From NCBI GenBank assembly GCA_938023075.1, contig CALHDG010000036.1:1-64000 (forward strand): a DNA stretch of 64,000 bases, in the 5' to 3' direction. The notes under the pieces were generated by a model that worked only from the letters and a program-made list of their open reading frames with translations, ran no database searches and had not been told where the DNA came from. Of the stretch, positions 3,311-56,080 are shown piece after piece. The translations under genes were made by a program, and so were the position numbers. The DNA is from an uncultured Chitinophagales bacterium (GTDB taxonomy: Bacteria; Bacteroidota; Bacteroidia; Chitinophagales; JAHDHT01). The stretch's first letter is position 1. The number at the start of each line of letters is the position of its first letter.

Positions 3311-6300
3311 TTATTGCTTCTTAATAATCACTTTTGAAGTGAACACCTCATTAGTGGTAATAAAATACATGCCGGGTGTAAAATCAGATACGTTTAAACG
3401 AAGTTGATGTTGATTCAACTGCCGGTATTTCATTATTTCGCGACCCGTTACATCTCTAACCATCACACTGTTTATAGTTGCTTGGTTATTTTTAAACTGT
3501 ATAGTTATGATGTTGTTTGCAGGGTTGGGATATACCAACAAGAAATCGTTGGTTATATTAATATCATTGGTACTTAAAACCCAATCATTATTAGCTTTAA
3601 AAGTTGGATCAGTCAACTGAAAATCGCCAGTACCATTTGGCTTTCGGGCAAAACTCATATCGGTCACTTGATCAGTATAGGTAATTAGATCAAGTATAAC
3701 GGAGCTGTTGTCTGATAAGTAAATGGTTTCTCCTGATTTCGATAATTTAAAATTGGCGTGAAATCCTTCTTGAGAACCATCTTCATCAGCCCAAACAACT
3801 AAATAGTCATTTGCTGGTAATATGGTGTTTTCAGGAAATTTAAACTTAGCCAAGTTTTGGCCATTATCAGATAGATGATAACCAGAAATATCTAAGTCTT
3901 CGGTACCATAATTGTATAACTCTATCCAATCATCAAATTCGCCATTTTGATCTTGGGCAGTACTATCATTAGAAGTCATAAATTCATTAATTACTATAAA
4001 GGCATTTTTCACTTCAGGTTCAAATACTTTGTAGTGCGCAATTAAAGTATCGGGCACCAACATTCTATATGTAATATCGGTACTTGTATCTGATGGAGTT
4101 AGTGAATTGCCCGATCTGCTTTCCCAATGGCTAAATACATATTCGTTTTTATATTCATCAAGCACTTTGGCTTCTGCAAAATTATTCATATTGCCAAAGT
4201 AATCTCCGGTAAAAGGTAGTGTTCTGTGATTGAGTGTGTTGAAATCTATGCGTCCAACACCTGCTGGTTCGGTCATTAAGGTTACGGTATATTGTCCTTC
4301 AACTTCATCGTGGCATTCCATGGCTCTATCATTTAAAAATGCACATCGTTCGTTAATGAAGTTTTGCAGTTCTGCTACATTTTCTTCCCATTCTTGTATG
4401 GTGCCACCCCATCTATCAATTTGCCGGGGCATTTCAGGTTCAATTACTGCTATCATTCTATCATACAAATCATTCATATTGTCACAATTAAAAACCGTAT
4501 TCATTAAATCGGCATATCGCGAATAAAATAACTGCTTAAATTCAGGGCTATCTTCAAAAAGCTTTAATAATATTTTTTCGTGTTTCCCTACATTGCCAAC
4601 TATATCAACAAGGTTGGAATCTTCGGGTTCTTTAAATTGGTCGCCGCCAAGTAAATTATAATCTCTTTCGCAAGAATACCCCCATTCGTCACAACAATCA
4701 GGATTTAAGCCTACCACTAATGAAACCTTTGTTTCATTAAGACCTGTAGGAAGTGTTTCATTTACAACAATAGAGCAATTGGAGATGTCAACTAGACCAT
4801 CATCAGAAAATTCATCATACAATTCCTGACATTCGGTAGTCCATTCATCGCAACATGATTCTATAAAGAATAGAACAGTTTGTACAGCATAATCGCTTGG
4901 TGAATATGGAATGGTTTCATTTATAAAGACAGGGCAATCCTCAAAGTTGAGGTTATATGCTTCATTAGAGTTATCATAAGATTGTTGACATTCAGCCGTC
5001 CATTCATCGCAGCATGAGGATGTAGAATAAATAACACTTTGAAGTACAAAATCATCAGCAGGGTAAGGGCTGGTTCCGTTTAGTATAATTGGACAATCAC
5101 TGACATCAAAGCCAAAATATCCATAAGCAGAAAAAAACTGGTCAGCAGCATCAGAAACTAAAAAAATATCGCACATGCTTGCATCTGCTTTTGTGTTTGG
5201 TATATTCGTATAATTAATGTAGTAATCAAAAGTTGCATCTAAATCCCATAAAATATATCCCCATTTTTTGTGTGATCCATTTTGGTTTAAGCCTCTCCAC
5301 CATCCGGTATTATACACCAACCAATCAGAAGCTACAGTTGCCTGATTTATCGTAAAAAAGTCAATTAAACTAATGAGGTCCATGCTATCTTTAACTATAT
5401 TATAATTATTAACATCGCCCATATCATTATCTAAAATGAAGTCTCTAAGACTGGTCCATTCATCTAATGCTTTTGTTCCACCATATTCTATATCGGTTTC
5501 ACTCCAAGTTGATAAAAATTGTACATCTTTTTTCCCTTGATCGTAATAATAATCGGTAAAATCATGATCAACCACTTTTTCTCGCATACCATACAGTCCC
5601 CAGTATTTTCCATTTAGAAACAGGATTACTCTTTCTACCGTTCTGAGATCTAATTTTAAGTTCCCTTCTTGTGCAAGTTGCTGCACATACTCGTCTCTAA
5701 TATGTGCGCTACCTTCATGGTCTTCATCATCAATAGCCGGGTAATTATCATCGCCAGAATTACGAAACATAAATCGTTGATATTCATCTCTGTCAGAGGT
5801 ACTAAAAATTGGTGCATCAACCGCTTTTGAATAACCCATTTCGTCTCGTGATATCCAATCTATACTTCTGTGCGGTAAAACCCACGAGTCTTGTCCGTGC
5901 CGGTTTAATTCGCCAAATGACCGGGTCACAAATTCGCCGTCTTTGAAATATTCCAATGATCCGATAGGTAATAATTCGCCGATTCCCGCCGCTAAATTAG
6001 TTACCCTGTCTGCCGCAACCGAAAAAACCGGCAGACTAAAAGATTCATCAATAAAGTAGGTGTTAAATTCTAATTTTCCCGGCAGCACATTTTCATCATT
6101 ACTATAAGCCTTAGCTTTTACTACGGTAGTTTCTGAAATGGTGACCGGTTCTTCATAGATTGGAGAATCTGGTAATGGATTGGAACCATCAATTGTATAT
6201 CTAAGTACTGAGTTTTCTTCTTCATTGGTTATAGTAACCGTTTGCGTGCCTTCGTAAAACCCTGCTTTTAAATCCATAGTGGGTGTTGTAGTATATCGCT

Positions 6301-6814
6301 TTGCTTTTGTAATGTTGTTATTGGTTTGTCCAATACTTGGTTTAGTACAAACCATCCACTCTTCGCCACCATCCATATTTCTACAGTTAGCATGTTCCGT
6401 TAAAGTTAAGTTCAATTGAACTAAATCAACTATTTCTCTATCTTTATTAGATAGCACTAATACATCGTCGCCTTTTGTTTGCGTTAGTTTAAAATTGGTG
6501 TGATATTCATCTTCGAACAATCCATCGTTACCAGAACAGAATATTTTAAGAAATCCATTAGCTGCAATTACTGTATTTGAAGGGAAAGTCCATTTCGAGC
6601 GGTCATCTTCTTTATCAGATATAAACCAACCACTAATATCTAAATCTTCATTGGAAGGATTATAGAGTTCTGCCCAATCTTCTGTTTTGTTAAAAAAGTC
6701 TTTAATATTATCCAGGTTTGAGGCTGAATATTCGTTGATTACAATTTGGGCATTGATATGGATGGCAGATGTAAAAGTTAATAGTACTAATAAAGCTAAT
6801 TTTCTTAAAACCAT
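3311..6814 (-). CDS. Secreted CotH-kinase/lamin-tail protein with T9SS sorting domain
   Basis: A 1167-residue exported protein. In order: signal peptide (1-22), a lamin-tail domain (about 23-135), a chitobiase-like beta-sandwich (about 165-255), a CotH kinase-like region (about 265-820), a second lamin-tail domain (about 938-1060) and a T9SS type A sorting domain (about 1090-1167, with LLVYPNPANN). CotH-type proteins in other bacteria phosphorylate spore-coat or surface proteins; activity here is not shown. The CotH region is interrupted at about 590-720 by three repeats centred on CCDEW, each with a later Cys. The gene is monocistronic and probably exported by the T9SS to the cell surface. 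Confidence 0.88.
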   Translation of the reverse strand: MVLRKLALLVLLTFTSAIHINAQIVINEYSASNLDNIKDFFNKTEDWAELYNPSNEDLDISGWFISDKEDDRSKWTFPSNTVIAANGFLKIFCSGNDGLFEDEYHTNFKLTQTKGDDVLVLSNKDREIVDLVQLNLTLTEHANCRNMDGGEEWMVCTKPSIGQTNNNITKAKRYTTTPTMDLKAGFYEGTQTVTITNEEENSVLRYTIDGSNPLPDSPIYEEPVTISETTVVKAKAYSNDENVLPGKLEFNTYFIDESFSLPVFSVAADRVTNLAAGIGELLPIGSLEYFKDGEFVTRSFGELNRHGQDSWVLPHRSIDWISRDEMGYSKAVDAPIFSTSDRDEYQRFMFRNSGDDNYPAIDDEDHEGSAHIRDEYVQQLAQEGNLKLDLRTVERVILFLNGKYWGLYGMREKVVDHDFTDYYYDQGKKDVQFLSTWSETDIEYGGTKALDEWTSLRDFILDNDMGDVNNYNIVKDSMDLISLIDFFTINQATVASDWLVYNTGWWRGLNQNGSHKKWGYILWDLDATFDYYINYTNIPNTKADASMCDIFLVSDAADQFFSAYGYFGFDVSDCPIILNGTSPYPADDFVLQSVIYSTSSCCDEWTAECQQSYDNSNEAYNLNFEDCPVFINETIPYSPSDYAVQTVLFFIESCCDEWTTECQELYDEFSDDGLVDISNCSIVVNETLPTGLNETKVSLVVGLNPDCCDEWGYSCERDYNLLGGDQFKEPEDSNLVDIVGNVGKHEKILLKLFEDSPEFKQLFYSRYADLMNTVFNCDNMNDLYDRMIAVIEPEMPRQIDRWGGTIQEWEENVAELQNFINERCAFLNDRAMECHDEVEGQYTVTLMTEPAGVGRIDFNTLNHRTLPFTGDYFGNMNNFAEAKVLDEYKNEYVFSHWESRSGNSLTPSDTSTDITYRMLVPDTLIAHYKVFEPEVKNAFIVINEFMTSNDSTAQDQNGEFDDWIELYNYGTEDLDISGYHLSDNGQNLAKFKFPENTILPANDYLVVWADEDGSQEGFHANFKLSKSGETIYLSDNSSVILDLITYTDQVTDMSFARKPNGTGDFQLTDPTFKANNDWVLSTNDINITNDFLLVYPNPANNIITIQFKNNQATINSVMVRDVTGREIMKYRQLNQHQLRLNVSDFTPGMYFITTNEVFTSKVIIKKQ

Positions 6815-7143
6815 AATTTAATTTTAGGCTCAATATTAATGATGAGCTAAGTGTAAGTTATTATTAATTAATTCTCTACTAATACTATATTTCGTTTATC
6901 TAAAAAACGTTGCATTTAACTTTATGAATTTTCGATTATTTATCATCTTTAAATCTTCAATAAAACTCATAATGCAATTATTTTGGCAATAATAAAACAA
7001 TTAACAGGTTGAAAAATAGAACTTTATCTGGCAATTAATGCCTTATGTCCAATACCAAAATTAACCATAAAATATAATACAAAATTATATTATAATATTG
7101 GTTCAGCAGCTTTAGGTTTAAACATACATAACATAGCTAACAA
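6815..7143. other. Intergenic region without a gene
   Basis: 329 bp, strongly A/T-rich, between two minus-strand genes. It holds a partial copy of repeat family R4 (7052-7102). No open frame of interest was seen. Confidence 0.6.
7052..7102 (+). repeat. Partial copy of MITE-like repeat R4
   Basis: ATACCAAAATTAACCATAAAAT and the later ATAATATTGG match the left half of the complete element at 12196-12359. The right end is missing. Confidence 0.55.
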
Positions 7144-9606
7144 TTAGGTTGGCGTTTTATAGTTAAACGGCATAAGTTTTTTACTAATGGTAAATTGAAA
7201 GATACTGCCTTTACCAACTTTAGAACTCAATCCAATTTCACCTTGGTGGTACTCAACTATCTTTTTACATAAAGCCAACCCTATACCTGTACTCATATTA
7301 TGAGTTGGATTAACCTGTTCGAAAAAATTAAATATAATTTTATAATGCATTTGTTTTATGCCAATTCCATTATCCTGAACTTTAAAGCTCCAACAATATT
7401 TATTTTCTTCAACTGTTATAATGACTTTTGGCAGTCGCTCAGGAGCTTTATATTTAATAGCATTACTTATCAAATTTTGCAGAAGCTGTTTAAAAAGTGT
7501 TTCATCTGCAAAAATATGTTTGACGGTAGATTCAAATTGTAAACTTGCATTATTGTCTCTTATTAATACATATAATTCTTCTTTCAGCTGAATAAATAGA
7601 TCAGCTAAATCAACTCTGCGAATATTTACTTTTTGGGTATCTAAACGAGCAAACAATAAAAATTTATTGATAATGGTATGCATATTTTTTATTGACTGTT
7701 GAATAGCGTTAACATGTAGAAAAGAGGAAGTGCTATGATTCGTGTTATCAGATTTTTTCAGCAGGCTAAAAAAACCTTTCAGTACATTCAAAGGTTCTTT
7801 CAATTCGTGAGAAACAGAGAAGGCAAATTTTTCTAAAGCATCGTTCGAATCTAATGCTTGTTGAATTTTTTCATTCTTTCGCTCTATTTTTTTTTGGCTT
7901 TTTTGTAATCTTAAATCTGCTTTTTTTTGTTCAGTAATATCTTTGTAAATTGAAGTGATGTAAATTTTTCCTTCAATTTTAAAACGAATTAAAATCATTT
8001 CGGTATCAACTAATTTCTTACCATTACCATATTGCCATTCAAAACTAATTACTTTATTTTTTATAAATTTTGGAGTAAGTTGTTTAATTACTGCTTCCGA
8101 TGCAAGTCCATTTCTTTGATAAGTTGGGCTCATTTTTAAAATGTCGTTAAATGAAAAAGAAGTATTCTTTACATTATCGGAAGCATTGCTTAACAAGTCA
8201 TATAATTTGTTATTTCTTAATATCATCCGATGTGTCCATTTTCCGTTTTCATTTAAAGGAGGTATGGACTCGTGAATTTCAATTCCATCAAAGGCATGGT
8301 TAACCAAAGTTCGGTATATAGCTTCGCTTTCTGCTAAGGCTGCTTCCGTTTTTTTTAGTTTGGAAATATCGGTAAACATGGCAACAAGGTGATGTGAATT
8401 ATCCGGATGTTCCATTGAAAACTTGTGCAGGTTTACAATTGCGACACCTATAGATTCATCTTTTCTAATAAAACGGTATTCAAAAGACTGACCTTTTAAA
8501 TTGCCTGTTGCTGTTTGCTTAACTAAATTTCCGGTAGCTAAGTAATCTTCAATACGTATAATTTTTGAAATTTCGAAACCAATTATCTCATCTTTAGAAT
8601 AACCCGTCATTTTACAAAAAGCACGGTTTACTTGGTCAAATTTTCCATTCTTAGCAGATATAATGCCCAATTGATTGTTTTCAAAAAGTTCTCTGTAATT
8701 CTTCTTACTTCTTTCCAATTTAATTTGCGCAACCCTTTTTTCGGTTACATCTATTGAAACGCCTAAATAACCAATATTTGAACCATTTGAATTTAAAAGG
8801 GGTGTTTCAAATACTTCGTGATAGCGGGTTTCATTAGCATGATTTTTAAAACTGTTTAACTTGTATTTAACATCACTTTTACTATTGGAATGATTGTTTT
8901 TATAAGGCTTCCAAAAGTTTTTAATATTTTCTCCAATAAGTTTTTTTGAATGCTCTTCATCAAAATTGCGCATTGTTTCATTTACAAAAGTGAAATTGTT
9001 TTTTGTATCGGTTGTATAAATAAAGTGTGGATTTAAATCGGTTATTTGTTTTAAAAAAGTAATGTGTTGTTCTAACATGTTTTGATATTTGTTAACATCT
9101 CTTTTAAAATAACAAATAAAAGAAATGATAATCGTAAAACAAATAAAACAAATTGAAATGTGAGTGAAATATTCAGGGTCAAGATCGTAGATTTTTATTG
9201 CAGCACTAAAAAATACGAAAAGTGACATTATTGCTGCAAACAGATTAAATTGCTGATGTGCTTTACTATTATTTAAATAAGTATTAACTACAAATACCGC
9301 CAGAATTACTGGAACACTAAATATTAAAACATTAAAAACATAGGGAACAACGGCAGCAAAGCCATAAAAATAACTACATATAATTGTAGTTGCCGTATAG
9401 GTTTTTTTGAAATAAATTAATATTAAACCAAATATTATAACGATTTCAGTTAACAAGGCAACTAATATATCTAATTTTTCACCAATGGTAATTTCAATAA
9501 AAACCGGAATTTGAATCAGTAGAAACAAAAAAATCACTATTTTTTTTGCTAACTCATTATCATGATGTTCGTTTTTTGTTTTAAATAAAATAAAGTCGCT
9601 TTCCAT
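7144..9606 (-). CDS. Membrane-bound PAS-domain sensor histidine kinase
   Basis: An 820-residue kinase. Residues 1-165 contain about six hydrophobic helices. Three PAS-type sensor segments follow (about 175-300, 305-425, 430-560), each ending in a PAC-like IGYLGVSIDVTEK or YKDITEQKK segment. A short coiled coil leads to HisKA with the phospho-acceptor His600 (SVSHELKEPLN) and an HATPase domain with NLISNAIKYK, DNGIGI and TGIGLALCKK. It lacks a receiver domain and no response regulator gene is adjacent, so it is an orphan kinase. The signal sensed cannot be read from the sequence. Confidence 0.92.
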   Translation of the reverse strand: MESDFILFKTKNEHHDNELAKKIVIFLFLLIQIPVFIEITIGEKLDILVALLTEIVIIFGLILIYFKKTYTATTIICSYFYGFAAVVPYVFNVLIFSVPVILAVFVVNTYLNNSKAHQQFNLFAAIMSLFVFFSAAIKIYDLDPEYFTHISICFICFTIIISFICYFKRDVNKYQNMLEQHITFLKQITDLNPHFIYTTDTKNNFTFVNETMRNFDEEHSKKLIGENIKNFWKPYKNNHSNSKSDVKYKLNSFKNHANETRYHEVFETPLLNSNGSNIGYLGVSIDVTEKRVAQIKLERSKKNYRELFENNQLGIISAKNGKFDQVNRAFCKMTGYSKDEIIGFEISKIIRIEDYLATGNLVKQTATGNLKGQSFEYRFIRKDESIGVAIVNLHKFSMEHPDNSHHLVAMFTDISKLKKTEAALAESEAIYRTLVNHAFDGIEIHESIPPLNENGKWTHRMILRNNKLYDLLSNASDNVKNTSFSFNDILKMSPTYQRNGLASEAVIKQLTPKFIKNKVISFEWQYGNGKKLVDTEMILIRFKIEGKIYITSIYKDITEQKKADLRLQKSQKKIERKNEKIQQALDSNDALEKFAFSVSHELKEPLNVLKGFFSLLKKSDNTNHSTSSFLHVNAIQQSIKNMHTIINKFLLFARLDTQKVNIRRVDLADLFIQLKEELYVLIRDNNASLQFESTVKHIFADETLFKQLLQNLISNAIKYKAPERLPKVIITVEENKYCWSFKVQDNGIGIKQMHYKIIFNFFEQVNPTHNMSTGIGLALCKKIVEYHQGEIGLSSKVGKGSIFQFTISKKLMPFNYKTPT

Positions 9607-9774
9607 TACAAGTTTTTATTGTTATTAACTATTAGGGTGATTAATTTATAAACGTTAGGGTCAACATTTTAATCTAAAATAAGAAAAATTTTGATAATAT
9701 GAAAATGAAATTGTTGCTTACGTAAATAGCATTGAATAGCAGTCTTTTATCAAAATATATTGTTTAAGAATGTT

Positions 9775-18041: not shown

Positions 18042-18074
18042 AAAAAAAAGCCCGGTGTAAAAACCGGGCTTTTT
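18042..18074. terminator. Bidirectional terminator
   Basis: GCCCGGT (18050-18056) pairs perfectly with ACCGGGC (18063-18069), flanked by eight As on the left and five Ts on the right. It ends the plus-strand macroglobulin transcript and the minus-strand gld region. Confidence 0.85.
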
Positions 18075-18096: not shown

Positions 18097-18383
18097 CTAC
18101 TTACCTTTCCCAAACTTCCCCTTACCAACAAACAACCGGCTAAAAACCGAACTCCCCTCAAAATAGGAATTCGTCAAAGCATCTGAAGTAACCACATATT
18201 CGGGTGTTGGACCTTTCTTTTCTTCCCCTTCATCTGTTGCTGCGGCAGGCAAAGCATACACATTAAAAGTAGTACTTTGCCCACTATTGGTTTCCACCAC
18301 TATATTGGCTATGGAATTAAAACCAGACTAATCACCAAATGCACTGCCACTAATGGTTGATACTGTATTTATATATCCACTTA
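18097..18383 (-). pseudogene. Duplicated 3' fragment of the DUF4340 gene
   Basis: The minus strand matches the C-terminal ~95 residues of the intact DUF4340 protein at 19348-20340, from YINTVSTISGS (intact copy YLNMVSTISGS) to FVGKGKFGKGK. The Gln after the first Asp is replaced by an in-frame TAG (about 18328-18332), so it cannot be read through. It starts only a few bases after the stop codon of the EGF-repeat gene, so that gene lies exactly between the two copies. Most of the tail is nearly identical, so the duplication is fairly recent or is being kept similar by recombination. Confidence 0.85.
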
Positions 18384-18387
18384 TTTT

Positions 18388-19293
18388 TTAATTTTCAGGA
18401 TAGCCTGCTTCTTTCCAACACATTAAGATTTGCAATTGCTCTTCTGTTAATTCCTTCGGATTACCTTCAGGAGCATAAGGTGGAGGCATAACGGGGTTGT
18501 CTGCGTCTCCTCCATTTAATACCCGTTTCTCAAAAGAACCATCTTCTAAAAAAGGTTGTAAATTACTAAACACATTGTAGTCTTTTTGACCAAACATGCT
18601 TGCAGCACCGTGACAAGCATCATAGGAACAGGTTACCGAAAGTACTCCAATTACATCGCCATCAAAGGTAGCATCAATATCGGCACAAGCATCTGGCGGG
18701 TCTACCATAGTTTCACAATTTTCGCCTGTAAAACCTTCCGGACAATCGCAAATACCTTCATTGCAAGTACCTCCATTTTCGCAAATTACAGTTTCGCAGG
18801 GGTCTACCACAGTTTCGCAATTCGTACCTGTAAAACCTTCCGGACAATCGCAAGTACCTTCATTGCAAGTACCTCCATTTTCGCAAGTTACATTTTCGCA
18901 GGAGTCTTCTACCACAGTTTCGCAATTCGCACCTGTAAAACCTTCCTGACAATCACAGTTACCATCATTGCAAGTACCTCCATTTTCACAAGTTACATTT
19001 TCGCAGGGGTCTACCACAGTTTCGCAATTCGTACCAGTAAAACCTTCCTGACAATCGCAGTTTCCATCATTGCAAGTACCTCCATTTTCGCAGGTTATAT
19101 TTTCGCAGGGGTCTGGTTGCAGCTCAGTTTGACAGTTTATACCTGTAAAGCCCTCAGGGCATTCACAATCCCCTTCAATACATGTACCACCATTTTGGCA
19201 GTTAACATCTTCGCATTCATCTTTGCAAGATGTAAAACATACTGCACCCGCAAAGAGCAATAGTATAATAAAAAATAGATTATTCTTTTTCAT
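18388..19293 (-). CDS. EGF-repeat lipoprotein with C-terminal cytochrome-like domain
   Basis: A 301-residue protein with a lipoprotein signal (Cys23 in CFTSC). Five EGF-like repeats of about 34 residues follow (27-200), each built on CENxxCENGGTC...CDCxEGFTGxNCE, the six-cysteine EGF pattern. The repeats are nearly identical as DNA (~102 bp units), so they expanded recently. The last ~95 residues resemble the haem-domain-like modules of Bacteroidota surface proteins: C222-x4-C227-H228, then NPVMPPP and LTEEQLQILMCWKEAGYP. CX4CH is an unusual but known haem-attachment spacing; haem binding is not proven. The gene lies between the broken and intact DUF4340 copies. Confidence 0.8.
   Translation of the reverse strand: MKKNNLFFIILLLFAGAVCFTSCKDECEDVNCQNGGTCIEGDCECPEGFTGINCQTELQPDPCENITCENGGTCNDGNCDCQEGFTGTNCETVVDPCENVTCENGGTCNDGNCDCQEGFTGANCETVVEDSCENVTCENGGTCNEGTCDCPEGFTGTNCETVVDPCETVICENGGTCNEGICDCPEGFTGENCETMVDPPDACADIDATFDGDVIGVLSVTCSYDACHGAASMFGQKDYNVFSNLQPFLEDGSFEKRVLNGGDADNPVMPPPYAPEGNPKELTEEQLQILMCWKEAGYPEN
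18700..19210 (-). repeat. Tandem ~102 bp repeats inside the EGF-repeat gene
   Basis: Five in-frame units encode the EGF-like modules. The middle three are nearly identical in DNA, one carrying a 3 bp length difference. Such an array is prone to gain and loss of units. Confidence 0.8.
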
Positions 19294-19347
19294 ATAAAAT
19301 TATTAAACAATATTTATGATAAAAACTATTAAATTTAATAGTTGTAT

Positions 19348-20340
19348 TTATTTAGAAAACTTCCCCTTCCCTACAAACAACCGGCTAAAAACCGAACTCC
19401 CTTCAAAATAAGAATTCGTCAAAGCATCTGAACTCACCACATATTCGGGTGTTGGACCTTTCTTTTCTTCCCCTTCGGCGGGTGCTGAAGCAGGTAAGGC
19501 ATAAGCATTAAAAGTAGTATTCTGCCCACTTTTGGTTTCCACTACAATATTAGCAATAGAGGAAGAATTGGGCTGGTCAACAAATTTACTACCGCTAATG
19601 GTTGATACCATATTTAAATATTGAGCCACTTGGGTTGAATCAGCCTCTGAACCGTTAATCGTCCAAAGAGAATCTGCTAAAACCAATTGATACGCAGAAT
19701 CGGTGTAGTTGAAATTGATTTTGGCAATGTCTGCCCGGTTGGCTTTAAACATGGCTTTATCTCTGTAATTATCTGCGGTTTGACTGTTGAGACCTTCGTA
19801 AAAACCTTTTACGGCAAATACTTCATTTTCACCTTGCAAACGTACATAACTGGTAAACTTAGGGTTGCTTTGTCCGCCAAACTGACCGCCTTGTTGTTGT
19901 AAACTTTGTGGATCAATATCAAACTTACCCAAAATAATATCCAATACTTTATTAGCACCTTCATAAACTTCAACATTAGTGCCTTGATCGTCCACTTTGT
20001 ACTCTGCCCATTTATCGGTAGTGCGAGCAGCCACCTGAGAAGTTTTAATTCCTTCTAATTCTTTAAAGGTACTTTCAATGGCATTTTCCATGGCAGTAAC
20101 TTTGCTGCCATCTTTTAAAGTAACCATCCATTGTTCACCATCTTTATTTAACTCAAGCGGCTGATCGTTTTTGTTGCTCTTTATAACAACCTTAGTAGCT
20201 TTGTCTTTATCAATAGCTACCAACTCCGATTTAAAGTTACGCTCTCCCTTTTTTTTGTCTTGGCTAGTAATAAATAGATACGCCCCAACCAAGGCTAACA
20301 AAGCAATAATTAAAAATAAATTTCCTTTTTTCTTAAACAT
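19348..20340 (-). CDS. DUF4340 domain protein of the gliding ABC operon
   Basis: A 330-residue protein with an N-terminal membrane anchor (about 8-26, LFLIIALLALVGAYLFI) and a large outer part with repeated DUF4340-type beta modules. Its start overlaps the end of gldG by 8 bp, so the two are translationally coupled. DUF4340 proteins accompany auxiliary ABC transport genes in many Bacteroidota, probably as part of the same envelope complex; no enzymatic role is known. The last ~95 codons are duplicated at 18097-18383. Confidence 0.85.
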   Translation of the reverse strand: MFKKKGNLFLIIALLALVGAYLFITSQDKKKGERNFKSELVAIDKDKATKVVIKSNKNDQPLELNKDGEQWMVTLKDGSKVTAMENAIESTFKELEGIKTSQVAARTTDKWAEYKVDDQGTNVEVYEGANKVLDIILGKFDIDPQSLQQQGGQFGGQSNPKFTSYVRLQGENEVFAVKGFYEGLNSQTADNYRDKAMFKANRADIAKINFNYTDSAYQLVLADSLWTINGSEADSTQVAQYLNMVSTISGSKFVDQPNSSSIANIVVETKSGQNTTFNAYALPASAPAEGEEKKGPTPEYVVSSDALTNSYFEGSSVFSRLFVGKGKFSK

Positions 20341-21859
20341 AGCGTGCCTCCCTCCATTTGTTTTTCTTGCGGTTTCTTACTTGCAATCGAATTAAACCAT
20401 ATAACATAATTAAGCCGATGGGCAAAAAGAAGTTCAAGTATTTGATCATCGTTTTTTGACCATCTTCCAACTCTTTACTAATCGGTCTTGAAGTAACTTC
20501 CTTAGTTCGCAATTCACTTAAACCCGTATCATCATTTAACCATTCAATGGCATTTACCATTAAGCTGGCAGAGTTAGGATCTATTTGTCGAGCTTGTTGA
20601 CCACTACCATTGGTAGCAAAATCACCATCACCTATCACCACCATTTTAGCCTCGCCATCTCCTTCAATGCCTTCAACCAAATTACCTGTTAAAGCAGCCG
20701 CAACCGGTAAGGCTTTTTGAGTAAAATCATTGTTGGTCCACTCTTTATTAATATCAAAAAAAGTTGGAGCAGGCACTGTATTGGAACGCTCTGAACTAAA
20801 GGCTAACTTGGTTACCTTCACTCCATCTTTTGCTGGAAAACTTAAAGAGCTTGCAAATTGAAGCACCGCTTGTTCCAATCCTTTGGTTATCGGATGGTCT
20901 GCAAAATTTTGAATAATAGGTAAATACGGAAATTGAACCGGACGATTAAAAGAAAAGAAGCCCGTTTGCTGTTGCACCGAAACGCTTCCGCATTTAATAT
21001 CGGTTACAAAATTATTTTCTACCGTTACGCCTTTATCCGTTAACCAGGTTTCTAAACCGGTGGATAGTGAAGTTCCTCTGCTTTGCTGAATATCCGCATC
21101 AACTCTATTAATGGCAACAAATAAACCTTTACCTGTTTTCAAAAACGAATCTAACATATCGAACTCGGCAGTTACAAAACTATCTTTGGGTGCAATAAGC
21201 ATTAAACCTTTATAGTTTGCCGGTGTAAGCGTATCTAAGGTTACGGGTTGCACATCAAACAAAACACTTAAGGCACTGGCAACTTGATTTAGCTCATTTA
21301 AAGGCGGTTCGCCATGCCCTTGTATCAAACCTAATTTGGGTTTGTTGGTTACCGATATTTTTTTAATAGAAGAAGACAAAGCATATTCCATAGCCGCACC
21401 GGGCTGCATAAAAGGAATCACCTCTTTTTGATTTTGCTGTTTAATAACCGCACCCAAATAAACCCGTTGTTGTTTAACCTGATCACGCTCCCGCATATTC
21501 ACCTGTACCGGTTGTATGCCTTCCTGTTGTGCAGCTTGTTCACTTTCCTGATCGGCATTAGGGTTAATGAATTCATACACCACATTACCATTAGATCTTT
21601 TATTGTATTCTTCTAACAGATCTTTAAAATCGGCTTTGGTTTGTGCAATTTGTGCCGGTACATCTTCTGAAAAATAAGCAGAAACCGTTACCGGATCTTC
21701 TATATTTTTTAAAATATTTTTAGTGGGCGTACTTAATGTGTATCTTTTGTCTCCTGTAAAATCCAAGCGGAAAAACAATCGATTTAATAAAACATTAGCC
21801 GCCAAAATTACTGCCAGAATTAACAGTATTCTTACCCAGCGTTGAGAATTAGTTGTCAT
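20333..21859 (-). CDS. gldG: Gliding motility ABC transporter auxiliary protein GldG
   Basis: A 508-residue protein with a membrane helix at each end (about 10-28 and 475-492) and a large periplasmic part of the ABC-transporter auxiliary type, including a SIKKISVTNKPKLGLIQGHGE segment. In Flavobacterium johnsoniae GldA, GldF and GldG form an ABC transporter needed for gliding. It starts 3 bp after gldF and overlaps the DUF4340 gene, so it sits inside one operon. Confidence 0.93.
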   Translation of the reverse strand: MTTNSQRWVRILLILAVILAANVLLNRLFFRLDFTGDKRYTLSTPTKNILKNIEDPVTVSAYFSEDVPAQIAQTKADFKDLLEEYNKRSNGNVVYEFINPNADQESEQAAQQEGIQPVQVNMRERDQVKQQRVYLGAVIKQQNQKEVIPFMQPGAAMEYALSSSIKKISVTNKPKLGLIQGHGEPPLNELNQVASALSVLFDVQPVTLDTLTPANYKGLMLIAPKDSFVTAEFDMLDSFLKTGKGLFVAINRVDADIQQSRGTSLSTGLETWLTDKGVTVENNFVTDIKCGSVSVQQQTGFFSFNRPVQFPYLPIIQNFADHPITKGLEQAVLQFASSLSFPAKDGVKVTKLAFSSERSNTVPAPTFFDINKEWTNNDFTQKALPVAAALTGNLVEGIEGDGEAKMVVIGDGDFATNGSGQQARQIDPNSASLMVNAIEWLNDDTGLSELRTKEVTSRPISKELEDGQKTMIKYLNFFLPIGLIMLYGLIRLQVRNRKKNKWREARYV

Positions 21860-21862
21860 TAT

Positions 21863-22588
21863 TTAATTAGTTGTATTTCGTTTTGCTAATACAGCTTGAG
21901 CCATAAAAATGCCCAATGCCGATATTGATAAAAAATATAATATGTCACGACTGTCAATTACGCCTCTTGAAATGGATTGATAGTGACCTGACACATCTAA
22001 ATAAGCGAATATTTTACCCAGCACTCCGGTCATATTGCCCGCCAAGGTTCCAAAAATAATTAAGAAAAACATACCAATTAATAAGGCTAATAAAAAGGCA
22101 ACTATTTGATTTTTGGTGATGGAGCTGGTAAACAAACCAATGCCGGCATAAGCTGCACTCATTAGTAAAATACCCAAATAACCACACCAAACGGCACCGT
22201 GATCAATAGGACCCAACCAGGCAATGGTAAAATAATAAGGTAAACTAAATACTAAGGCAATCAAAACCAACAGCATAACAGATAGGAATTTACCCAATAT
22301 AACCTGCATGTCGCTTACATCTTTAGTTAATAAAAGTTCAATGGTCCCGGTGTTGTTTTCTTCTGCCAACATTTTCATGGTTAAGGCAGGGATGAAGAAG
22401 AACATCGTCCAGTAGGCAATGGCAAAAAAGGGTTGCATACTTGCCTGCCCGGTGTAAAATACATCGGCACCATATAGCCACGTAAAAAAGCCACTTAGCC
22501 CAAGAAATACCATGATGAGGATATAAGCGATCAGTGAATCAAAAAAAGCCCTAAATTCCCGGATGGCTATTGTCCAAATTTGTTTCAT
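21863..22588 (-). CDS. gldF: Gliding motility ABC transporter permease GldF
   Basis: A 241-residue inner-membrane permease with six hydrophobic segments and the LTMKMLAEENNTGTIELLLTKDVS cytoplasmic stretch typical of ABC-2 permeases. It lies 58 bp downstream of gldA and 3 bp upstream of gldG. Length is normal for the family. Confidence 0.93.
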   Translation of the reverse strand: MKQIWTIAIREFRAFFDSLIAYILIMVFLGLSGFFTWLYGADVFYTGQASMQPFFAIAYWTMFFFIPALTMKMLAEENNTGTIELLLTKDVSDMQVILGKFLSVMLLVLIALVFSLPYYFTIAWLGPIDHGAVWCGYLGILLMSAAYAGIGLFTSSITKNQIVAFLLALLIGMFFLIIFGTLAGNMTGVLGKIFAYLDVSGHYQSISRGVIDSRDILYFLSISALGIFMAQAVLAKRNTTN

Positions 22589-22646: not shown

Positions 22647-23576
22647 TTAATTTAAAGTCAAGTTACGGAAAACATCTTCCATACTTTTTTCTACCGGAAT
22701 CATTTCGGTAATCACCCAATTGTTTTGCACACATAACTGAAATACGCCCCGTTTAGAACTTAGCTCAGAATTACCGGCTATAATAAAATGATTACTTCTT
22801 TTGGGGTCTAAATCAACACTTTTTACCGTAGCCAATTGTTGTAGTTTATTGTAAATGTCTTCTGGTACACCATCTTCTATAGTTACTTTTAAAACTTCGC
22901 TGCCTTGTGCTTGTTTCTGCAAAGTAGAAGGAGCTCCATCGGCTACTAATTTACCTTTGCTGATAATAATAGCTCTGCTACAGGTAGCTTCAACTTCCTG
23001 CATCAGGTGTGTAGATAAAATAACTGTTTTTTCAGAACCGATTTCTTTAATCAAGTTTCTGATCTCTACAATTTGATTTGGATCTAAACCTGTAGTTGGT
23101 TCATCTAAAATTAAAATCTCCGGATCGTGAATTAAGGCTTGAGCTAAACCCACTCTTTGTCGATACCCTTTAGAAAGTTCTCCTATCTTTTTATGCTTCT
23201 CTAAATCTAAGCCGCACAACTGAACCATCTTTTTAATCCGCTGCGGAATTCCTGATTTCGCCAATCCCTGTAATTTGGCTACAAATTCCAGATATTCAAT
23301 AACCGGCATATCTTTATATAGCGGGTTATGCTCCGGTAAATAGCCAATTCGTTTTTTAATTTCGTCTGCATGTTCACCAATGGAATAATCGCCCACTCTT
23401 ACAGAACCTTGCGATGGAGCCATATAACAAGTAATAATTTTCATGGTGGTGGTTTTACCGGCACCATTGGGACCAAGAAAACCCAGAATTTCTCCGGTGT
23501 TTACCGTAAACGAAATATCATCAACGGCATTTTGCGGACCATACGTTTTCGTTAAGTTTTCAACACTAATATTCAT
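22647..23576 (-). CDS. gldA: Gliding motility ABC transporter ATPase GldA
   Basis: A 309-residue ATPase: Walker A GPNGAGKTT, signature LSKGYRQRVGLAQAL, Walker B ILILDEPTTGLDP, switch His in STHLMQEVE, and a C-terminal extension. I start at the ATG at 23576 (MNISVENLTKTYG): homologues begin there, and a good promoter at 23607-23638 lies inside the 69-codon upstream extension that is otherwise open. First gene of gldA-gldF-gldG-DUF4340, energising the transporter. Confidence 0.93.
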   Translation of the reverse strand: MNISVENLTKTYGPQNAVDDISFTVNTGEILGFLGPNGAGKTTTMKIITCYMAPSQGSVRVGDYSIGEHADEIKKRIGYLPEHNPLYKDMPVIEYLEFVAKLQGLAKSGIPQRIKKMVQLCGLDLEKHKKIGELSKGYRQRVGLAQALIHDPEILILDEPTTGLDPNQIVEIRNLIKEIGSEKTVILSTHLMQEVEATCSRAIIISKGKLVADGAPSTLQKQAQGSEVLKVTIEDGVPEDIYNKLQQLATVKSVDLDPKRSNHFIIAGNSELSSKRGVFQLCVQNNWVITEMIPVEKSMEDVFRNLTLN

Positions 23577-54529: not shown

Positions 54530-54673
54530 TTTTTGAATTGTATTTTAATCAAATTTACAATAATTAATTGAATCTGTAGAAGGATAGATTTCTTTTAACC
54601 TTAAAAGAACATGAATAACTTTAAATGGTTTGGTGAAAAAAATAACTTAAAAAATCAGGCAATAGTTTATTTA

Positions 54674-54753
54674 GTACAAAAAATAATCATGTTCAAAAAA
54701 TAAAATATCTTTACAAAAAATAGAAATATGGATTTAGCCAGCAGAAAATTAGC
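54674..54753 (+). promoter_or_regulatory. Antitoxin leader repeat, copy 1
   Basis: An 80 bp segment with a TATCTTTA box (54706-54713) and the first eight codons of the antitoxin. Copies at 55284 and 55895 are nearly identical, so a promoter and gene start have been triplicated. Confidence 0.7.
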
Positions 54754-54958
54754 ATTTGTTCAAGCATTTCTAAGCTTAGAAGATGAACAAGTGATCCGTA
54801 GCTTTGAACAATTGCTTTCTGAAAATCAGCAAAACACATTTACACCAATGACAAAAGAACGGATAAACAAAGAAATTGATGTAGCTTTAGAAGATTCAAA
54901 AAACAACCGCTTTATTGAACATCATACTTTAAAAAGCAAAATGAAAAGTTTCAATTGA
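54728..54958 (+). CDS. Small antitoxin, cassette 1
   Basis: A 76-residue acidic protein, MDLASRKLAFVQAFLSLEDEQVI, with a C-terminal half (NKEIDVALEDSKNN) typical of small ParD/RelB-like antitoxins. Its stop overlaps the start of the toxin pseudogene at 54955 by 3-4 bp, the usual antitoxin-toxin arrangement. The same N-terminus begins the antitoxins at 55328 and 55949. Confidence 0.72.
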   Translation: MDLASRKLAFVQAFLSLEDEQVIRSFEQLLSENQQNTFTPMTKERINKEIDVALEDSKNNRFIEHHTLKSKMKSFN

Positions 54959-55252
54959 AGATATTCTGGACATTTTACGCAGAAACCAAGATATTAGAAA
55001 TTGAAGATTACTATACTAAAGTTGCCGGTGAAAACATAACCACAAAACTCATTCAAGGAATTTTTGATGCTGTTTAATATTTAATAGAGTATCCTAAGAT
55101 AGGACCTAATTGAGGAAATGTTGGCTAATAGAAAAGAAAAGTTTCGCTATCTTGTTTACAAAAATTATAAAATTATTTATTGGATAAACGAAACTGAAAA
55201 TCAAATTGAAATAATGAATATTTTTGATTGCCGACAAGATGAACATAAATAA
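54955..55252 (+). pseudogene. Broken ParE/RelE-like toxin, cassette 1
   Basis: Starts at TTG 54955. The first 40 codons read KIFWTFYAETKILEIEDYYTKVAGENI and then stop (TAA at 55075). A second frame from 55106 continues LIEEMLANRKEKFRYLVYKNYKIIYWINETE to IFDCRQDEHK. One nonsense change plus one frameshift separate the parts, so the toxin is dead. Confidence 0.82.
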
Positions 55253-55283
55253 TTAGATATGAATTAAATGGTGGTCAACAATC

Positions 55284-55353
55284 TAATCATGTCCAAAAAA
55301 TAAAATATCTTCACAAAAAATAAAAAAATGGATTTAGCCAGCAGAAAATTAGC
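55284..55353 (+). promoter_or_regulatory. Antitoxin leader repeat, copy 2
   Basis: Same sequence as copy 1 with a few changes (TATCTTCA instead of TATCTTTA at 55306-55313). Confidence 0.7.
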
Positions 55354-55570
55354 TTTGATTAGTACATGCTTGAGTTTAAAAGATAGCAGAATTATGGATG
55401 GACTTGAAATACAGTTGAACCAAAAGTTAGCTACCTACCGTGTTAAGGATGTACAACCAATGAGTCTTGAAAAATTCCATAAAGAGATTGAACAATCTAT
55501 TGAAGATTCAGAAAATGATAACGGTGTAGAAGCAAATGTACTATTAGAAGAAATTAAAAATTGGAAATGA
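55328..55570 (+). CDS. Small antitoxin, cassette 2
   Basis: An 80-residue protein, MDLASRKLALISTCLSLKDSRIM, ending in SLEKFHKEIEQSIEDSENDNG. The N-terminus equals that of cassettes 1 and 3, but the rest has diverged from cassette 1 at more than half of the positions. Its stop overlaps the ATG of the toxin pseudogene at 55567. Confidence 0.72.
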   Translation: MDLASRKLALISTCLSLKDSRIMDGLEIQLNQKLATYRVKDVQPMSLEKFHKEIEQSIEDSENDNGVEANVLLEEIKNWK

Positions 55571-55878
55571 CAATTTTTTGGACAGCATTAGTAAAGCTTA
55601 AGCCTCAGGAAATTTATGATTATTATTTTTACGAAGTGAGTTTTGAAGTTGCCGAAAATATAGCGAGTCAGATAGTAAAAGAAACGCTTATGCTTTTAAA
55701 TTCTCCAAAAATTGGGTAAAAAGAATTATTATTGGAAGAATATCCGAATAATTTCAGATATTTGATTTATAAAAATTACAAGATAATTTACTGGATTAAC
55801 AATAAGAAAAACAGGATAGAAATTGCCAATATTTTTGATTGTAGACAAGACCCTAATTTATTAAGAAGCATGAAATAA
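55567..55878 (+). pseudogene. Broken ParE/RelE-like toxin, cassette 2
   Basis: ATG at 55567. One in-frame TAA at 55717 (after SPKIG) interrupts an otherwise complete toxin: MTIFWTALVKLKPQEIYDYYFYE, then EEYPNNFRYLIYKNYKIIYWINNKKNRIEI and IFDCRQDPNLLRSMK. A single change could restore it. The sequence is about half identical to cassette 1. Confidence 0.82.
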
Positions 55879-55894
55879 TAAACTTTTTGATAAA

Positions 55895-55974
55895 GTACAA
55901 AAAATAATCATGTTCAAAAAATAAAATATCTTTACAAAAAATAAAAAAATGGATTTAGCCAGCAGAAAATTAGC
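55895..55974 (+). promoter_or_regulatory. Antitoxin leader repeat, copy 3
   Basis: Same 80 bp as copy 1 apart from a few bases near the start codon; TATCTTTA at 55927-55934. Confidence 0.7.
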
Positions 55975-56080
55975 TTTAATCAAAATAATTTTGAGTATAG
56001 AAGAGGAGGCAATTCTAATAGAATTGCAAGAATTTTTAGATAAATTACTTGCTGAACAAGAGGAAAATAAAGAGCAGTAA
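55949..56080 (+). CDS. Short antitoxin-like gene, cassette 3
   Basis: A 43-residue protein: MDLASRKLALIKIILSIEEE, then a Glu-rich end (LLAEQEENKEQ). It has the leader and N-terminus of the other two antitoxins but is shorter and has no toxin after it. It may still act as a small antitoxin or be a remnant. Confidence 0.6.
   Translation: MDLASRKLALIKIILSIEEEAILIELQEFLDKLLAEQEENKEQ

Follow-up and report, generated by a model that had tools for sequence, protein, structure and literature searches.

The window, a stretch of 64,000 nucleotides from a draft genome of an uncultured Chitinophagales bacterium, contains an ABC-transporter operon on its minus strand that is followed by an arrangement of repeated gene ends. 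Reading along that strand, the genes for GldA-like, GldF-like and GldG-like proteins precede a gene of the DUF4340 family, an EGF-repeat lipoprotein gene and a decayed tail of the DUF4340 gene. We observed directly that the 3' end of the DUF4340 gene is present twice, once within the intact gene and once in a copy broken by a TAG codon, with the EGF gene between the two and a terminator-like hairpin after the second. The features, in coordinates of the window, are as follows.

18045 to 18074, not assigned to a strand: strong hairpin with 12 base pairs, flanked by T runs on each side and resembling a bidirectional terminator; it lies just past the displaced copy.
18097 to 18099, minus strand: TAG closing the displaced copy (sequence and translation).
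18112 to 18376, minus strand: decayed, displaced copy of the DUF4340 3' end, without an ORF (direct repeat; tblastn E 2.5e-41).
18328 to 18330, minus strand: in-frame TAG that cuts the displaced copy short; the intact gene has CAG here (codon comparison).
18388 to 19293, minus strand: EGF-repeat lipoprotein gene, 301 aa (ORF; Pfam EGF_2 and EGF; alignment of the C-terminal domain with eight relatives).
19294 to 19347, minus strand: AT-rich spacer from the intact DUF4340 stop to the EGF start (sequence).
19348 to 20340, minus strand: intact DUF4340 gene, 330 aa, last in the gldAFG-like ABC operon (ORF; Pfam DUF4340, PF14238, 58 bits, cut-off 25).
19357 to 19621, minus strand: duplicated 3' end, intact copy, codons 241–328 (direct repeat, 84%; codon comparison).
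20333 to 21859, minus strand: GldG-like ABC auxiliary protein, 508 aa (TIGR03521, 261.5 bits, cut-off 389.85).
21863 to 22588, minus strand: GldF-like permease (TIGR03518, 217.6 bits, cut-off 288.5).
22647 to 23573, minus strand: GldA-like ATPase, just below the cut-off (TIGR03522, 393.8 bits, cut-off 402.6).

The sequence-only reading had taken this operon for the gliding operon. The gene order and protein families are indeed those of the gldA-gldF-gldG gliding ABC transporter, but we rejected this assignment because all three proteins miss the NCBIfam equivalog cut-offs. A separate gldA-F-G set lies on contig C131 of the same genome (L095, 2576–5960); there, GldA (420.9 bits, cut-off 402.6) and GldG (601.9 bits, cut-off 389.85) both pass, and a 243-aa ORF of GldF size sits between their genes. 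Some relative of GldG was found in all 30 genomes searched, and the window type (46–55% identical) in 6 of the 29 other genomes. The window operon is a gldA-gldF-gldG paralogue accompanied by DUF4340 and should not be called a gliding operon.

The duplication is a two-copy direct repeat of 265 nt, ungapped, in which 18112–18376 matches 19357–19621 at 84% identity and an offset of 1245. It corresponds to codons 241–328 of the 330 in the intact gene, so that the duplication described earlier holds but its extent shrinks from about 95 codons to 88. The whole DUF4340 protein finds the displaced copy in tblastn at E 2.5e-41, indicating that it is not a chance match. Two further observations of the sequence-only reading were borne out: the second tail is interrupted by an in-frame TAG, at 18330–18328, and the EGF gene lies between the copies with its stop only a few bases from the tail, the distance being 11 bp. 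The EGF stop codon, TAA, shares the frame of the tail. The final codons of the two tails differ (SK-stop versus GKGK-stop), and the TAG at 18099–18097 is probably the former gene end.

The protein encoded between the two copies comprises a signal peptide, in which we read an FTSC lipobox by eye, as well as five EGF stretches and a C-terminal region of ~100 aa to which no Pfam name could be given. This last region, a CX4CH...MPP domain encoded at 18388–18705 on the minus strand, aligns with eight proteins from the same genome and its relatives, seven of them short whole ORFs (117–142 aa) and one the end of a 174-aa ORF. Nine residues are invariant across the nine sequences (C7, C26, C31, H32, M73, P74, L86, W97 and G101), and among them C26, C31, H32 and M73 make up a CXnCH heme-site motif with a distal Met. 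The combination of CX4CH, a later MPP and a W-x3-G ending resembles that of small c-type cytochromes. Supporting this, the best PDB match was the one-heme cytochrome c 4rlr, a marginal hit (E 0.013) and the one search result in its favor; a single-sequence structure model (pLDDT 39.9) was too poor for a structure search. The alignment, with CX4CH and MP invariant, links the domain to small cytochrome-like lipoproteins of Bacteroidota, from which the present protein differs in the five EGF repeats that precede the domain; heme binding is putative. The product is probably an outer-membrane or surface lipoprotein with a predicted small cytochrome-like C-terminal domain.

To characterize the divergence of the two tails, we compared 92 codons. 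The copies agree in 56 of these; among the others, 17 carry synonymous and 19 non-synonymous differences. Counted by codon position (1, 2 and 3), the mismatches number 11, 13 and 26, and this third-position excess indicates that the copies diverged in part while coding constraint still acted on them. Such a bias is expected for alleles from two lineages or for older paralogues. Within the tails, both copies share an acidic-lysine insert around EGEEKKGPT (19440–19500, minus strand) that is largely absent in eight aligned relatives. The copies therefore parted after the insert arose.

These features bear on what we regard as the main rival to an insertion, namely a tandem duplication of the whole DUF4340 gene, after which both copies diverged under selection and the EGF gene took the place of the first two thirds of the downstream one. 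The excess of third-position mismatches, which would reflect coding constraint on both copies for a time, the shared EGEEKK-region insert and the terminator after the downstream copy all speak for such a history. Yet nothing was seen of codons 1–240 of a second copy, and two copies occur in none of the eight other genomes with a match (59 searched). We consider this course of events possible, though on the unlikely side.

A third route would be template switching during replication, in which a single event copied the 265-bp tail twice and captured the EGF gene between the copies. Both edges of the repeat lie at or near gene ends, and the inverted repeats of a transposon are missing, as this route would have it. 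But copies made in a single recent event should be nearly identical, and to reach 84% identity and a premature stop they must have decayed for a long time; neutral decay, moreover, has no preference for third positions. Furthermore, the best paralogue of the EGF gene in its own genome is 55% identical, indicating that the gene is not a recent copy from that genome and leaving template switching with no local EGF donor. We judge this route improbable.

The terminator-like hairpin provides an orientation for the locus. It is the strongest of its kind in the whole window and follows the displaced tail, not the intact one, which places the displaced tail where an original operon end would lie; the intact tail is followed by the spacer and the EGF start instead of a terminator. 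Our preferred reading, to which we assign an even chance, is that homology-facilitated illegitimate recombination (HFIR) left the 3' end of the ABC-transporter operon with an insertion scar. Incoming DNA consisting of a DUF4340 3' end and the EGF-lipoprotein gene would have joined the resident DUF4340 gene. At one boundary a crossover would have taken place between homologous DUF4340 sequences, and at the other, immediately past the EGF stop, the ends would have been joined illegitimately. The incoming end would have restored an intact reading frame. What had been the end of the resident gene, including its stop codon and the terminator of the operon, would have come to lie downstream of the EGF gene and to decay there. 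We infer the direction of the event, the mechanism of joining and that the intact tail is foreign. A homologous tract is present on one side of the insert, as HFIR would have it, in the form of the 265-bp repeat (84%); on the other side, where the join would be non-homologous, the displaced copy begins 11 bp after the EGF stop, and AAGTGG is common to both copies upstream of the repeat start and across a gap. The anatomy fits an illegitimate insertion with a homologous anchor, tandem duplication with replacement and template switching alike, and HFIR is the most specific mechanism that yields exactly this gene order. The earlier proposal of an insertion or recombination that kept the operon intact best accounts for the order seen here, in which an intact tail and the EGF gene are followed by a decayed tail, an old stop and a terminator; its further statement that a new gene was added is unproven, as a second, tandem DUF4340 copy that was replaced in part would fit equally.

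Identity between the tails is stepped, at 75% across the first 145 bp and 95% across the last 120 bp. Mismatches divide into 36 and 6 between these parts, a split matched in unevenness by 1 of 2000 shuffles. The same holds for third positions alone (19/49 versus 5/40 mismatched, Fisher P 0.008) and for positions 1 and 2 together (17/96 versus 1/80). Gene conversion acting later on the final 120 bp would account for this pattern, and uneven constraint might do so. The step counts against a single import by itself, which needs gene conversion or uneven decay as well. Of 14 differing sites that could be scored against 28 relatives, 9 place the intact tail nearer the family and 4 the displaced tail, with one tie; this is a weak sign that also fits a displaced copy simply decaying. 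Nothing in the base composition points to a foreign origin: GC and GC3 were 0.399/0.33 and 0.408/0.326 for the two tails and 0.375/0.329 for the head of the gene, with no useful difference.

The same anatomy, a restored intact gene and a displaced remnant, would result if a mobile element had integrated by a site-specific or Campbell-type event and had brought along a 3' end of the gene; some islands do carry such a copy of their target. Here, however, the insert is the EGF gene alone: between the copies we found the EGF ORF and an overlapping antisense ORF but no integrase ORF, and the repeat search returned no inverted repeats at the insert. Integration of this kind is very improbable. As for the assembly, the genome is a draft in 288 contigs, which leaves an artefact conceivable in principle, but identity of 84% is unlike collapsed or chimeric reads and both copies lie well inside a 107-kb contig; we give an artefact next to no weight.

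We then turned to relatives. DUF4340 scores above its cut-off in 161 of the 396 genomes of the order. The tail as a query matched its own genome only among all 396. The whole DUF4340 protein found a match in 9 of 59 genomes, its own included, and a second DUF4340 place in its own genome only, with no second tail in any of the eight others. At eight distant DUF4340 loci (25–30% identical by tblastn; L043 and L045 excluded as partial or unmatched), no EGF gene was present within the 379–3000 bp examined downstream. These distant relatives accord, weakly, with the insertion reading. Searches for a donor carrying the order DUF4340–EGF, in which this genome alone represented its genus, found none. 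In a scan of genome contigs, the DUF4340 protein found no relative and the GldG-like protein two distant loci.

We also asked how often comparable structures occur elsewhere. In a survey of the same genome covering 371 kb and 258 ORFs, there were five ORFs, DUF4340 included, whose end recurs nearby in sequence that belongs to no called ORF. This sample is non-random, as 6 of its 27 sources were chosen for EGF or cytochrome-like genes and the rest are the window, its contig, the gliding locus and contig starts. The other four ORFs (window 55861, L049, L104 and L109) encode 90–370 aa, and that at window 55861 belongs to a group of repeated antitoxin-like genes. This group, at 54660–56010 of the window, consists of three related copies of a ~121-bp leader with short ORFs starting MDLASRKLA; judged by eye, they look like antitoxin genes of toxin-antitoxin pairs. 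Around EGF or cytochrome-like genes, 12 stretches were checked for direct repeats. In those read through (L048, L050, L051 and L056), the anatomy of a gene end with its remnant was absent; L049, L053, L055, L057 and L059 contain repeats as well. In L056 (genome G011, contig C210), adjacent EGF-lipoprotein genes carry a 621-bp direct repeat at 92% (3586–4206 and 4935–5555), a recent gene-end duplication in another genus. In L049 (contig C8 of the same genome as the window), ~3 kb of dense internal direct repeats adjoin an EGF gene (6360–9680).

Displaced gene ends are familiar from Rhs/CDI loci, where they are non-homologous toxin tips; the present locus differs in that its two ends are 84% identical. 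Like this locus, Rhs/CDI loci have old gene ends downstream of the new end, according to PMC5361080. The same paper proposes HFIR, as defined in PMC3240628, for old 3' ends shifted downstream of Vibrio effector genes. The locus shares with HFIR a homologous anchor on one side and an added gene, with a putative non-homologous join on the other. It differs from the Vibrio case described there in that the recipient is a transporter-associated gene, neither toxin nor effector, and the added gene encodes a lipoprotein; moreover, we infer the event from the locus, and its donor was not found.

A broader notion is that EGF-cytochrome lipoprotein genes are small mobile cassettes that join operon 3' ends and bring a replacement end for the last gene. 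We hold this to be highly unlikely; if true, a transporter operon could act as a landing site without damage. The locus reflects ordinary genome evolution: it looks like a commonplace recombination scar, nothing in it points to a new kind of system, and the scar itself is probably without function. Its value is as a clear fossil of how a bacterial operon can gain a gene at its end and remain unbroken.
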